A stretch of 42,313 nt of DNA from an uncultured Clostridia bacterium (GTDB taxonomy: Bacteria; Bacillota; Clostridia; TANB77; CAG-508). The stretch lies in the NCBI GenBank assembly GCA_947631145.1, contig CANRKF010000008.1, positions 1 through 42,313 on the forward strand, written 5' to 3'. The notes under the pieces are model-generated. The model was not told where the DNA came from. It did not search any database and worked only from the letters and a program-made list of their open reading frames with translations. The first letter of the stretch is position 1. Every line of letters begins with the position of its first letter. The translations under genes were made by a program, and so were the position numbers. Below, piece after piece: positions 10,789-35,567 of the stretch.

Positions 10789-12261
10789 TTGAGCACTGCA
10801 AGTGGAGCTAAGGGTATAACTTTAATAGCCTTAGTAGTTACTATCGTAGTGCTTTTAATATTGGCAGGAATAACCATAACAATGGTATTAGGAGAAGATG
10901 GAATAATAGCACAGGCAAAATTAGCAGCAGAAAAGACAAAAGAAGCAGAAGAACAGCAAGAAAAAGATTTACAAGATTTAGTAGGAATGATAAATGAGGC
11001 AGTGAATGGAAAGGATCCAGAAAACTTACAAGACGCAGTAAGTAGTAAAAAAGTATTTTCAAACACAACGAAATTTGATGCCGAAGGAAATAAAATAGAC
11101 GAAAGTAATGAAGAAAAAAAGACAACTGCAATAACCATACCAGCAGGCTTCAAAATAATAGAAGGAGATCCAAGTAAAATAAATGAGGGAGTAGTAATAT
11201 CAGACGAAGCAGGAAATGAATTCGTATGGGTGCCATGTACGGCAGAACAATATAAATCACATACTTATACTGGAGATCATTCAAGTGATAATGGAACAAA
11301 TATTATTAAAGATACAGAAGGAGGTTGGAATACATGGGGTTATGGGGCATATAATGATTGGACAGACGAAGGAACAAATGAAGACAGCGTAGCAAAATAT
11401 GGAGGCTTTTATATAGCAAGATACGAAGCAGGAATACCAAGTAGCATGACCGGAATTTATGTAGATTCAAAATCAGCCAATAGACCTTATGTAGTAGACG
11501 GAAGAGATACATCAAATTATGCTCCAGTAAGTAAAAAAGGAGCACAAGCATGGAATTATATAAGTCAAACAAATGCAAAAGAAGCAGCAAGAAAAATGTA
11601 TAGCGGAAGTGGGGCAGTAACAAGTCAATTGATAGATGGAACAGCATGGGATAGAACAGTACAATGGATAGTAGAAAATAGTGGAGTTACAGATATAGAA
11701 AAAGATAGTACAAATTATGGAAACTATGCAAATACTTCGGAGAGATTTGGAGAAAAATATAAAAAATTAAGTATAAATTCTCCTATACTATTTGCAGAAC
11801 ACTTATTTGAGTACAACACCGATGAAACAACTGGTGCTTGGAAACAAAGTGTTGGCTGGAGAGAGGGAAAAAACTATCAATATGGAAGCATAGATACTGG
11901 TTACGAAGATCCATATAATTCATTAACTGATGCAGCAGAAAAATACAATAATTTCGGTGGTACAGAAAATAAAAAGTATAGACATTTTATAGAATTATCT
12001 ACTGGAGCAAGTGAAGATACAAAATTAAATAATATATATGATTTAGCAGGAAACATGTACGAATGGACAACAGAAACAGGTCACCATAAAACAGACACAA
12101 ACACAGAAGCCGGCAGTACGAAGTTCGCTGTCGTTCGTGGTGGCAGCTTAATCGACGTCGGTGAAAGCTATCCCGTTTCTATTCGCTATGGAAACCCTAT
12201 TATAGACACGACTCGTTTTTCAATGGGCTTTCGTGTTGTACTTTATGTAAAGCAATACTAA
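10789..12261 (+). CDS. prepilin-like N-terminus + FGE/C-type-lectin-fold protein, candidate DGR target copy 1; likely phase-variable and out of frame with its ATG
   Basis: GAKGITLIALVVTIVVLLILAGITITMVLGEDGI; NEFVWVPC; GGFYIARYEAGIPSSM; LNNIYDLAGNMYEWTTETG; ...GFRVVLYVKQY. Listed start is a TTG with a weak upstream SD. Confidence 0.8.
   Translation: MSTASGAKGITLIALVVTIVVLLILAGITITMVLGEDGIIAQAKLAAEKTKEAEEQQEKDLQDLVGMINEAVNGKDPENLQDAVSSKKVFSNTTKFDAEGNKIDESNEEKKTTAITIPAGFKIIEGDPSKINEGVVISDEAGNEFVWVPCTAEQYKSHTYTGDHSSDNGTNIIKDTEGGWNTWGYGAYNDWTDEGTNEDSVAKYGGFYIARYEAGIPSSMTGIYVDSKSANRPYVVDGRDTSNYAPVSKKGAQAWNYISQTNAKEAARKMYSGSGAVTSQLIDGTAWDRTVQWIVENSGVTDIEKDSTNYGNYANTSERFGEKYKKLSINSPILFAEHLFEYNTDETTGAWKQSVGWREGKNYQYGSIDTGYEDPYNSLTDAAEKYNNFGGTENKKYRHFIELSTGASEDTKLNNIYDLAGNMYEWTTETGHHKTDTNTEAGSTKFAVVRGGSLIDVGESYPVSIRYGNPIIDTTRFSMGFRVVLYVKQY
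12118..12252 (+). other. candidate DGR variable region, copy 1
   Basis: 135 bp, GC-rich with CGT/CGC Arg codons in a gene otherwise using AGA; aligns without gaps to 33846-33980. Confidence 0.6.
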
Positions 12262-12402: not shown

Positions 12403-12475
12403 AAAATATATGTTTTACATTATTAAAAATCTTTAATATTTTTTTTAGTAGATGTAGCATATTTTTTAGTTAATA

Positions 12476-12504
12476 TTGACAGATAAGTTAGAAATTGTTA
12501 TACT
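12476..12504 (+). promoter_or_regulatory. sigma-A promoter TTGACA-17-TATACT
   Basis: ttgaca gataagttagaaattgt tatact upstream of the Rpn remnant. Confidence 0.7.
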
Positions 12505-12543
12505 AGAACTAAAGAAAATAAAAACAAATAAAGAGTGGGATGA

Positions 12544-12604
12544 GAATTACTAGACTGGTTATTTTTCATAGATAATCCAAACTCGGAAAGGAAAAAAGAA
12601 AAAA
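12544..12604 (+). pseudogene. short Rpn-like fragment in another frame (ELLDWLFFIDNPNSER)
   Basis: Frame-1 codons 12544 onward resemble the mid-region of Rpn proteins, out of frame with the downstream tail ORF. Confidence 0.4.
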
Positions 12605-12916
12605 ATGAAAGAAAATGTAAAATTAGAAAAAACAATTGAAAAATTACGAACAATGAAAGAAAACGAATATATGGATTGGATAGCAAATTTCGCGGAAAGA
12701 GCATCAATAGATTATAATTTAGGAATTTTAAGTGCACTAGGGCGAGGTAGAGTAGATGGCTTAGAAAAGGGAATAGCTATAGGAGAAAAAAAGCTAAAAA
12801 AGGCAAAATTAGAAATAGCAAAAAAATTACTAAAAAGAGGAATAGAAATAAATATAATAATGGAAGCAACAGGTCTAACAGAAAAGGAAATACAAGAAAT
12901 TCAAGTTATTAAGTAA
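12605..12916 (+). CDS. Rpn-family C-terminal tail-only protein, 103 aa
   Basis: AKKLLKRGIEINIIMEATGLTEKEIQEIQ matches AGKLLKHGVKINIVKEATGLTEKELKELQ of the full-length gene at 34385. Confidence 0.6.
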   Translation: MKENVKLEKTIEKLRTMKENEYMDWIANFAERASIDYNLGILSALGRGRVDGLEKGIAIGEKKLKKAKLEIAKKLLKRGIEINIIMEATGLTEKEIQEIQVIK

Positions 12917-31690: not shown

Positions 31691-31968
31691 AAATATATAT
31701 ACAGTGTGTTTAACAATAGTTGACAATAAACTATTACATTTAGATTTGAATATAATTGTAAGAAAATAATAAAGATAGAGAATATTATACCGTTTATGTG
31801 GAAAAATATTCTCTATTTTTATATTCTCATTTTTATATTTATATTTTTATATTCTTCTATTTTTGTATTCTCATTTTTGTATCTTTATTTTCATATTCTT
31901 TATTTTTGTATTCTCAATTTTTGTTTTTAATATGAGTTTTTCTGATTTTACTATTCTAGAATACCATC

Positions 31969-32238
31969 TTATTTTTTTGGTAAATCGTTTTTATCAAATC
32001 TTTCTATGGCTTCTACATCTTTAAAATATGGAGAATCGAAGAAATCTTTTAGTTCAATATTAAAGCCTTCACAAATATGTATAATAGAACTAAGAGTAGG
32101 TTCTTTTACCTTTCCACGTTTGAAGTCACTAATAATAGAGTTAGAAATTCCTGCGCGGTAAGAAAGCTTATATACAGTTAAATTATTTTGTTTTAATAAT
32201 TCATTAATTCGTAAATTAATGGCTTCTGATAATAACAT
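31969..32238 (-). CDS. XRE-family HTH transcriptional regulator
   Basis: LRINELLKQNNLTVYKLSYRAGISNSIISDFKRGKVKEPTLSSIIHICEGFNIELKDFF. Confidence 0.9.
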   Translation of the reverse strand: MLLSEAINLRINELLKQNNLTVYKLSYRAGISNSIISDFKRGKVKEPTLSSIIHICEGFNIELKDFFDSPYFKDVEAIERFDKNDLPKK

Positions 32239-32335
32239 TTAATTCCTCCAAATAATTATTGAAAATACAGAAAAGTTACTACATAAAATAATAAATTCAT
32301 TTATATAAAAGTATAGCAAAAGAATAAAAAACATT

Positions 32336-32353
32336 ATTCGGAAAGAACCAAAT
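32336..32353. promoter_or_regulatory. candidate XRE operator O1
   Basis: ATTCGG-aaagaa-CCAAAT, one mismatch to a perfect inverted repeat. Confidence 0.5.
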
Positions 32354-32369
32354 ATTTTATTATAATGTA

Positions 32370-32398
32370 TTGACAAACATATTTAGCAAATATATAAT
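32370..32398 (+). promoter_or_regulatory. consensus sigma-A promoter for target copy 2
   Basis: TTGACA-17-TATAAT. Confidence 0.85.
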
Positions 32399-32406
32399 AT
32401 ATTTAT

Positions 32407-32424
32407 ATTCGGAATAAACCGAAT
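32407..32424. promoter_or_regulatory. candidate XRE operator O2 over the transcription start
   Basis: ATTCGG-aataaa-CCGAAT perfect inverted repeat, about 9 nt after the -10. Confidence 0.6.
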
Positions 32425-32486
32425 AGTATTAATTCATATAATGAAAGGTTTATTTGAATAAAATTACAAAAGAAAGGGAGAAAATT

Positions 32487-33983
32487 ATGATAGGAAAATT
32501 GCAAATGAGTAATGAAAACAAAAAAATGCAATTAAAAGCAAATAAGAAACAAAATGGAGGAATAACGTTAATAGCCTTAGTCGTTACCATTGTAGTCTTG
32601 CTAATACTTGCTGGAATAACTATAACAATGGTACTAGGAGAAGATGGAATATTATCACAAGCAAAACAAGCAGCAGAAAAAACAAAAGAAGCAGAAGAAC
32701 AACAAGAAAAAGATTTACAAGATTTAGTAGGAATGATAAATGATGCAGTAAATGGAAAAGATCCAGAAAACTTACAAGATGCAGTAAGTAGTGGAAAAGT
32801 ATTTTCAAATACAACAGGATATGACTCAGCAGGAAAGAAAATAGACGAAAATAGTGAAGAAAAGGCGGTACCAGTAATAACAATACCAGCAGGTTTCAAA
32901 ATAATAGAAGGAGATTTAAATAGCATAGACAACGGAGTAGTAATATCAGACGAAGCCGGAAATGAATTTGTTTGGGTGCCATGTACTGCAGAACAATATA
33001 AAAAGCATACTTATGCAGAATTAAAATCTGAAGAAACAGATGAAGGAAAAAATTTAGAAGATGGAAATAATCACGATGAAGGTTGGAATACATATACATA
33101 TAGAAAGTACAACGATTGGGTAGAAGAAAATGAAACAGCCAATAAAGCAAGTATAGGAAAATATGGAGGATTTTATATAGCAAGATACGAAGCAGGAATA
33201 CCAAGTAACATGACAGATGTTTACTTAACCTCACAAACAGGAGATTATACTTATGAAGAAAAAAAGAATACATCAAATTATGTGCCAGTAAGTAAAAAAG
33301 GAGTACAAGCATGGAATTATATAAATCAAACACATGCCAAAGGCGCAGCAGAAAAAATGTATAGCGGAAATAGATATGTAATAAGCCAATTAATAGATGG
33401 AACAGCATGGGATAGAACAGTAGAATGGATAGTAGCTAGTAAAAAATATGCAGACATAGAAAAAGACAGTACAGAACATGGAAACTATGCAAATACTTCA
33501 AAATTAGATATAACAGAAAATATTTTATATGCATTGCACTTGGAAAAGCACGATAACAATCACACAGCAAAAGGTTGGTTCTCAGCAAAGAATTATAGCT
33601 ATGGAAAGCCAGAAAAAATAGGAACAACAGATCCTTATACCGGAGAAGATTTTGGCAATTATAATAATGCAGTTAAAGTAGATGGCAGTGAGCGTCATTA
33701 TAGACAATTATTAGAATTATCAACAGGGGCAAGTGAAGATACAAAACTAAATAATATCTATGATTTAGCAGGAAACATGTATGAGTGGACTACAGAAACT
33801 GGTTATCATAATGTATCAGTTCCAGCAGAAAGAGAGGACACGAGTACACAGTACGCTGTCCTTCGTGGTGGCGCCTTCCTCGGCACTGGGTATGTAGATC
33901 CTGTTTCTATTCGCGCTGGACATAATACTGTAAGCAAAAATGATGTTCACTATGGCTTTCGCGTCGTACTTTATGTAAAATAG
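32487..33983 (+). CDS. prepilin-like N-terminus + FGE/C-type-lectin-fold protein, candidate DGR target copy 2
   Basis: SD aaagggaga before ATG 32487; NGGITLIALVVTIVVLLILAGITITMVLGEDGI; strong similarity to copy 1 throughout; ...GFRVVLYVK. Confidence 0.85.
   Translation: MIGKLQMSNENKKMQLKANKKQNGGITLIALVVTIVVLLILAGITITMVLGEDGILSQAKQAAEKTKEAEEQQEKDLQDLVGMINDAVNGKDPENLQDAVSSGKVFSNTTGYDSAGKKIDENSEEKAVPVITIPAGFKIIEGDLNSIDNGVVISDEAGNEFVWVPCTAEQYKKHTYAELKSEETDEGKNLEDGNNHDEGWNTYTYRKYNDWVEENETANKASIGKYGGFYIARYEAGIPSNMTDVYLTSQTGDYTYEEKKNTSNYVPVSKKGVQAWNYINQTHAKGAAEKMYSGNRYVISQLIDGTAWDRTVEWIVASKKYADIEKDSTEHGNYANTSKLDITENILYALHLEKHDNNHTAKGWFSAKNYSYGKPEKIGTTDPYTGEDFGNYNNAVKVDGSERHYRQLLELSTGASEDTKLNNIYDLAGNMYEWTTETGYHNVSVPAEREDTSTQYAVLRGGAFLGTGYVDPVSIRAGHNTVSKNDVHYGFRVVLYVK
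33846..33980 (+). other. candidate DGR variable region, copy 2
   Basis: 135 bp, same length and register as 12118-12252; shared cttcgtggtggc, gtttctattcgc, ggctttcg, gtactttatgtaaa-type blocks. Confidence 0.6.
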
Positions 33984-34010
33984 TACACTTAAAAAATCAC
34001 AATGTCATTA

Positions 34011-34077
34011 AGGGGCTACAACCTAAAAAGTACAGTTCATGAAGGGTAAAGTAAATTCAAAGGTTGTAACAGCACCT
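34011..34077 (+). ncRNA. hairpin region downstream of VR copy 2
   Basis: AGGGGCTACAACCT...AGGTTGTAACAGCACCT followed by AAAACATATGTCTTA, similar to the 3' flank at 12402. Confidence 0.4.
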
Positions 34078-34216
34078 AAAACATATGTCTTAGACATTTT
34101 AACATTATTATATAAGGAGGTGCGAAATGCATCTCCTAAACAAGTTTTATAAAGGTCACCTCAAGTGAAAAGTTAAATGCAATTTATAAAGGTCACAAAA
34201 AAATTCAAAATTTTAC

Positions 34217-34245
34217 TTGACAAGCAACATAAACTTGTGTAAAAT
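34217..34245 (+). promoter_or_regulatory. sigma-A promoter TTGACA-17-TAAAAT upstream of Rpn gene
   Basis: ttgaca agcaacataaacttgtg taaaat. Confidence 0.65.
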
Positions 34246-34384
34246 AATTACATGTTAATTCAATTATAAAATTAAATCAAAAATATTTTTTCGAAAAAAA
34301 TCCAGAAATTATTTTTTAGTTAAAAAACAAAAGCCAAATTTAAGAATTTATACAATCAAAAACTTAACTAGGAGGTAAAATATA

Positions 34385-35479
34385 TTGAACAAATCAGAAC
34401 AAAAAATTAAAAATATCTTGGGCATTGACATTACATATGAAGAAGATGAAGAACGAATTGGTAATTTATGTTTAGATGATGAAAATCATGTAGAAATTAA
34501 TTATCTAGCAGAAGCTTCTGCAAAGTATTTTTTAACTGAAAATAAAGGACATGATAAACTATTTAAAGAAGCTCTAAAAAATAAAATGGATTTTATAGAA
34601 TTTATACAGCAATTTGTAAGCCAAGAATTAGCAAAAAAATTAACAGAAAATAATATTGAAATATACGATAGGAAATTTATTACCAATAGCTTCACAGAAA
34701 TAGAATCAGATATTATATACAAAGTAAAAAATAAAGCACTATACATAATAATAGAAAATCAATCTACAATAGATAAAAACATGTCATATAGAATGCTAGA
34801 ATACACATCAGAAATAATAAAAGAACATATGCAAATTACAAATAAAGAAAGTGAAAAATATCCAAAAATAATACCAATAGTAATAAGTACAAGTAATAGA
34901 AAATGGAATGCAAAATTAAAATATAGTGAAAAAGAAGAAAAAATAAAAGGACTAAATAAAAGTTACATAGATTTAGAATATATATTAGTAGATATTAATC
35001 AATATACAAAAGAAGAACTATATGAAAAAAACATAATGTTATCATATTTAATGTTATTAGAAAAAGCAGAAACGAAAGAAGAATACGAAGAAACAATAGA
35101 AAAAATGATAAACAATTTACGAGAAGAAAATATAAGTAAAATGGCAAGATTTGTAAAATGCATATTAGGGCAATTGCTAGAAGAAGAAAAAGTAGAACAA
35201 ATAATAGAAGAATTAAGTAAAAAAGGAGGAAAAAAAGTTATGCCATCAGCATTAGAAAGATTTATGTTAAAAGAAAGAAAAGAAGGTAGAGAAGAAGGTA
35301 GAAGAGAGGGAAGAGAAGCAGGCAGACGAGAAGGCAGACAAGAGGGCAGAAAAGAAGCTAGAGACAAATTATATAAAGCAGCAGGCAAATTATTAAAACA
35401 CGGAGTAAAAATAAATATTGTAAAAGAAGCAACAGGACTAACAGAAAAGGAACTAAAAGAACTTCAAATAAATAAATAA
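34385..35479 (+). CDS. Rpn family recombination-promoting nuclease/putative transposase (PD-(D/E)XK)
   Basis: KGHDKLFKEAL at N-terminus, ESDIIYKV...LYIIIENQSTIDKNMSYRMLEY, EGRxEGRx repeat region and LLKHGVKINIVKEATGLTEKEL tail. TTG start after aggaggt. Confidence 0.85.
   Translation: MNKSEQKIKNILGIDITYEEDEERIGNLCLDDENHVEINYLAEASAKYFLTENKGHDKLFKEALKNKMDFIEFIQQFVSQELAKKLTENNIEIYDRKFITNSFTEIESDIIYKVKNKALYIIIENQSTIDKNMSYRMLEYTSEIIKEHMQITNKESEKYPKIIPIVISTSNRKWNAKLKYSEKEEKIKGLNKSYIDLEYILVDINQYTKEELYEKNIMLSYLMLLEKAETKEEYEETIEKMINNLREENISKMARFVKCILGQLLEEEKVEQIIEELSKKGGKKVMPSALERFMLKERKEGREEGRREGREAGRREGRQEGRKEARDKLYKAAGKLLKHGVKINIVKEATGLTEKELKELQINK
35240..35479 (+). CDS. candidate internally initiated RpnS-like C-terminal protein, 79 aa
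   Basis: In-frame ATG 35240 preceded by AGGAGG at 35224-35229 (10-nt spacing). Confidence 0.45.
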   Translation: MPSALERFMLKERKEGREEGRREGREAGRREGRQEGRKEARDKLYKAAGKLLKHGVKINIVKEATGLTEKELKELQINK

Positions 35480-35535
35480 TTTAACACCTTAAATTAATTA
35501 AAATAACAAATAATTTGTATAAAATTCCTAAAAAT

Positions 35536-35567
35536 CTCCATCTTAAATAATAAGGTGGAGGTTTTTC
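35536..35567 (+). promoter_or_regulatory. terminator-like hairpin containing the SD of the DUF5665 gene
   Basis: CTCCATCTTA-aataa-TAAGGTGGAG-gTTTTTc then ATG 35568. Confidence 0.6.

Follow-up and report, generated by a model that had tools for sequence, protein, structure and literature searches.

A candidate RpnL/RpnS toxin-antitoxin gene in an uncultured gut Clostridia bacterium, with an internal start kept in nearly all relatives

The gene described here is an rpn gene at 34385-35479 on the forward strand of a 42,313-nucleotide stretch of DNA (the window) from an uncultured gut Clostridia host, and it encodes 364 amino acids from a TTG start. The features to which the text refers are as follows.

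31691-35567, forward strand: accessory segment with rpn and an FGE-domain gene (32454-33983), flanked by the UPF0182 gene and the DUF5665-pgsA genes
34217-34245, forward strand: candidate sigma-70 promoter of rpn, TTGACA-17-TAAAAT, 11 of 12 consensus positions matched; a consensus match only
34370-34376, forward strand: main ribosome-binding site of RpnL, AGGAGGT, dG -11.6 kcal/mol
34385-35479, forward strand: rpnL, Rpn-family PD-(D/E)XK nuclease and candidate toxin (PF04754, 5.8e-29; TIGR01784)
34550-35131, forward strand: Transposase_31/Rpn nuclease domain, with D57 (34553), D109 (34709), E124 (34754), Q126 (34760) and R136 (34790)
35223-35229, forward strand: internal Shine-Dalgarno sequence (SD) AAGGAGG, dG -11.8 kcal/mol, kept in homologs in three codon phases
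35240-35479, forward strand: rpnS, candidate 79-aa antitoxin, read from an internal ATG at rpnL codon 286; profile match to 7TH0
35249-35470, forward strand: predicted long helix and two short helices, the three-helix RpnS architecture, from AlphaFold2 (AF2) models of the full-length protein and of the short product alone
35276-35357, forward strand: tandem array of 6.8 copies of a 12-bp unit (TRF), which encodes EGRx within the first, long helix of RpnS

In about ten congeners, the UPF0182 gene directly adjoins DUF5665 and then pgsA, while in the window ∼3.9 kb carrying the FGE-domain gene and rpn separates UPF0182 from DUF5665-pgsA. Since rpn is absent from the homologous site in these congeners, the window gene is accessory and horizontally variable, as expected for rpn. 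The neighbours examined were UPF0182, DUF5665, pgsA and a ligA-like gene, none of them a defence gene; the PADLOC models gave no match to the rpn gene, and a search of viral contigs for its relatives found none. A phage collection yielded just 6 matches to Rpn, all distant, and phage records rarely carry Rpn homologs, whereas many plasmids, mostly predicted to be conjugative, carry more distant ones. The closest named relatives come from uncultured Clostridia, many with the sample label Lapin, and the leader ACTAGGAGGT at the main ribosome-binding site is common to close relatives. FGE-type genes join a type IV pilin-like N-terminus to an FGE-sulfatase-like C-terminus, as was checked for 32454-33983; a frame at about 10789-12261 ends in a similar tail, FRVVLYVK, and FGE-like genes also stand before DUF5665 in genome G014 and before pgsA in genome G029. 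An antisense open reading frame at 34999-35388 was set aside as the mirror image of the purine-rich repeats, which it reads as LPSx repeats.

The full-length protein scored 69.4 bits against TIGR01784, for which the cut-off is 52.1. Although its overall identity to E. coli RpnA is 22%, D57, D109, E124, Q126 and R136 correspond to RpnA D11, D63, E82, Q84 and R94 and are invariant in an alignment that includes RpnA, whose activity requires these five residues (PMC5350276); judged from the alignment, the catalytic set of the window RpnL is intact. In the AF2 model of the full-length protein, a nuclease-like core is joined to a long helix by a stretch of low confidence (a dip in pLDDT at residues 281-300) that contains M286. 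The best fold matches of this model, with no E-value below 0.001, include several PD-(D/E)XK nucleases such as R.BspD6I small subunit and Can2. The E/H/Q motif reads ENQ in the window gene but EHQ or EQQ in nearly all relatives. This substitution for EHQ, and the fact that Rpn relics are common in this genome, would suit a decaying copy without current function, but we consider decay highly improbable: the 364-codon frame is unbroken, the catalytic D, D, E, Q and R are kept, and both ribosome-binding sites are strong.

Within this frame, the first-pass annotation had pointed to an internal SD and ATG that would yield a 79-aa C-terminal product beginning just before the EGRx repeats, with an SD at least as good as that of the TTG start. 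Each of these statements was borne out. The ATG at 35240-35242 is in frame, lies 10 nt beyond AAGGAGG and begins the short product 14 residues ahead of the first EGR unit, and the energy of the duplex with the anti-SD is -11.8 kcal/mol at the internal site vs -11.6 kcal/mol at the main one. The predicted unpaired fraction is 0.85 at the internal site vs 0.62 at the main site. The broader proposal of an RpnL/RpnS pair gains from the nuclease domain and its catalytic residues, the kept SD-led start, the RpnS-like C-terminal fold and the variable four-residue repeats, but an internal promoter found no support; a strong sigma-70-like promoter was looked for just upstream of 35240 and none was seen, such a scan being weak evidence.

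When the window gene was synonymously recoded, an equally good site arose in ∼55% of trials (P about 0.55), because Lys-Gly-Gly codons favor such a sequence in an AT-rich genome. Taken alone, the window gene carries an internal motif that is not clearly more than chance. The comparison with homologs gives a different picture. Among 22 full-length genes of the genus and family (the window gene and homologs of ∼27-70% identity), an ATG or GTG led by an SD stands 56-88 aa from the C-terminus in 22 of 22. Named genomes of uncultured Clostridia supplied 47 full-length homologs, a set that overlaps the first, and 46 of these have an SD-led internal start (dG <= -8) at the same domain boundary. The sole named homolog that lacks the start (L186) is no counter-example, as its C-terminal domain is also missing. 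As controls, only 1 of 206 in-frame internal ATG or GTG codons in 21 other genes of the window was equally strong, and 2 of 209 other internal starts of rpn genes qualified, both of them true gene starts. Across the phylum, 33 of 38 PF04754 clusters (made at 55% identity) have a site at dG <= -9 where synonymous recoding predicts 15.3 (log10 P about -17, with clusters taken as independent). The five exceptions comprise two slightly weaker sites (L164, -8.1; L087, -8.3), two strong sites outside the scanned interval (L170 and L106) and one truncated frame (L093).

The same scan applied to E. coli K-12 served as a positive control and recovered the internal start of each of the five genes rpnA-E; these lie 49-62 aa before the C-terminus, with dG of -7.2 to -11.4. 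The start that it placed in rpnA is M244, matching the published start (PMC10327210), which was verified by mutation and immunoblot (PMC10327210).

The recoding result for the window gene would fit an SD-like sequence that arises only because a Lys-Gly-Gly linker is conserved and the genome is purine-rich, with no short protein made. We think this very unlikely, given the 1 in 206 found in the other window genes and given that the encoded residues vary among homologs (KEE, KRR, KGV, SEV and others) while SD and start persist. The AGGAGG core occurs at the boundary in all three codon phases, encoding KGG, KEE and KRR among others. Because SD and start are kept despite changed residues and changed codon phase, it is a nucleotide signal that is conserved and not a peptide, and we conclude from these comparisons that selection on the nucleotides themselves maintains the internal ribosome-binding site and start in divergent Clostridia. 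Another reading of the signal, a ribosome pause without a start, draws on the position of the site, where the nuclease is predicted to give way to the C-terminal helix; this reading is extremely improbable, since an in-frame start follows the site in nearly every homolog, whereas the nuclease parts of the 47 genes hold 9 strong SD-like sites and none of these has an in-frame start after it.

The signal extends to a second family of Rpn proteins, PF12784 (PDDEXK_2), of which the same genome has several genes. These proteins share the C-terminal EGRx/TGL domain of the window RpnL but differ in having a longer predicted short product, of ∼80-130 aa. A strong internal SD and start were present in 12 of 13 phylum-wide PF12784 clusters, with 3.2 expected, and usually it is Glu-Val codons (GAGGTG) that form the SD. 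Copies in the window's own genome (G000) on contigs C42 and C16 carry a strong internal SD and ATG. Two subclades differ within the genus: in EV..IM the site is strong, at -10.7 to -12.9, and in SERVKEKM it is weak, at about -5 to -8.5. One PF12784 Rpn (L238, at G010:C26:6797) has 7-residue ELEGTKE repeats, coiled-coil-like, instead of EGRx and has no SD-led internal start. We did not find the PF12784 internal start spelled out in the main text of PMC10327210 or in the other literature searched. Two genomes of the same genus (G007 and G013) have ∼15 PF12784 matches each, many with differing lengths after the nuclease domain, which makes them a good set for the study of repeat-number evolution.

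The short product is related in fold to E. coli RpnA-S, as far as profile and model comparison can tell. A profile of short products compared with the PDB had as its best sequence the crystal structure of RpnA-S (7TH0, E 2.7e-5), and the AF2 model of the short product had 7TH0 as its best fold match (probability 0.96, 0.5 A over 36 columns, E 0.95). The E-values of the fold searches, 0.95 for 7TH0 and none below 0.001 for the full model, are weak because the domain is small and helical. In the AF2 model, the long helix spans residues 289-338 and holds the EGRx units, with the two short helices after it. This is also where close copies of the gene diverge: their nuclease parts are 98-100% identical, while the short products or C-termini are just 76-84% identical and their lengths differ by 4 or 12 aa. 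In G012 and G018, six close copies show length differences of 4, 8, 12, 16 and 20 aa, all multiples of four, and the window gene carries one extra insertion of 3 aa. Adding one repeat to E. coli RpnC-S broke its action on RpnC-L, and matching the repeats restored it (PMC10327210).

Truncated and relic copies of rpn also occur. The window itself has, at 12468-12916, a 5'-truncated and frameshifted relic of a PF12784-type rpn, with 77% nucleotide identity to G000:C24:2101. The first residue of its sole intact frame (12605-12916, 103 aa) is the Met that corresponds to the PF12784 internal start. This frame has a weak SD (-5.9) and shows dN/dS of 0.37-0.9 to paralogs; it is possibly an orphan antitoxin, and possibly plain decay. 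At locus L074 (G000:C24:19800-23000), the gene at about 21070-21600 of C24 encodes a 177-aa PF12784 Rpn from which the nuclease core is deleted, with both ends in frame; its deletion junction and the point at which homology to the window relic begins on the 5' side both fall close to one sequence (AGTTAATATTGACAG). C-terminal-only matches elsewhere in the genome were considered as free-standing antitoxins and rejected for C1 and C47, which end at contig edges, and N-terminal rpn pieces on C39 and C17 likewise end at contig edges, indicating assembly breaks in multi-copy PF12784 rpn. The real truncated or deleted copies among the C-terminal-only matches are only the one at 12605 of the window and the one at C24:21190. 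Because multi-copy rpn genes break the assembly (contig ends cut the copies at G000:C1:75202, C47:58, C39:15323 and C17:31724), the rpn copy number is underestimated.

Taken together, we favor the reading, with a probability of about 0.78, that the window gene encodes an RpnL nuclease toxin and, from the internal start, an RpnS inhibitor that pairs with it through the repeat helix, probably in phage defence. Initiation at TTG 34385 would give RpnL, a PD-(D/E)XK DNA endonuclease whose C-terminal dimerisation domain resembles RpnS; on the same mRNA, the internal AAGGAGG would direct other ribosomes to ATG 35240, from which they would make the 79-aa RpnS. The EGRx-repeat helix of RpnS would then pair with the matching C-terminal helix of RpnL and keep the nuclease inactive, and loss of this pairing upon infection or stress would release DNA cleavage. 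It is also conceivable, but in our view unlikely, that the internal start is real but yields a protein which RpnL needs as a structural partner, or which tunes its oligomeric state, and which is no inhibitor. Cas11d serves Cas10d as such a structural partner, and the sequence reveals a conserved second product and a dimerisation helix but not the sign of the effect. Tetramers of the form L2S2 exist for RpnA (PMC10327210), which would suit a structural role; against it, the S form in E. coli shuts off what its own L form does, namely cleavage, SOS induction and toxicity (PMC10327210). For the Clostridia host, the production of RpnS, its inhibition of RpnL and an action of the system on phage are inferred by carrying over the E. 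coli findings (PMC10327210).

Nucleotide-level selection on the internal ribosome-binding site is now seen in divergent Clostridia, and a second Rpn family shows it too. Since this site is kept despite changed residues and codon phase, many genes annotated as 'putative transposase' are likely to be toxin-antitoxin pairs with an unannotated antitoxin, and cloning or toxicity tests of any Rpn must allow for an internal antitoxin. More tentatively, with odds somewhat below even, we propose that the internal start is near-universal in the PF04754 and PF12784 Rpn genes of Clostridia and the same phylum, and that, where a copy no longer has its nuclease, the antitoxin frame may survive as a protective orphan, for example 12605-12916.

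In E. coli, the RpnL/RpnS genes (RpnA-E and RpnP2) encode a full nuclease toxin and a small inhibitor read from an internal start (PMC10327210). The window gene resembles them in its PF04754 nuclease with the same catalytic residues, in its SD-led internal start and in a three-helix C-terminal product related to 7TH0. Both have a variable number of 4-aa repeats, 8-20 residues from the internal Met in E. coli, with EGR from residue 15 in the window product. They differ in the length of the short protein (∼49 aa in RpnA-S and 79 aa in the window, mainly through the EGRx units), in the host, here an uncultured gut Clostridia bacterium, and in transcription, since E. coli rpn genes have internal transcription starts (PMC10327210) and an internal promoter, of which the window gene gives no sign. 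A C. difficile Rpn yields RpnS when expressed in E. coli (PMC10327210), and is thus a Gram-positive Rpn with an internal-start product. These comparisons support placing the window gene in the known RpnL/RpnS kind of intragenic toxin-antitoxin. The window gene very probably makes two proteins, as was already known for E. coli rpn genes; the homolog comparison shows that nearly all relatives retain the second start although the amino acids around it change.
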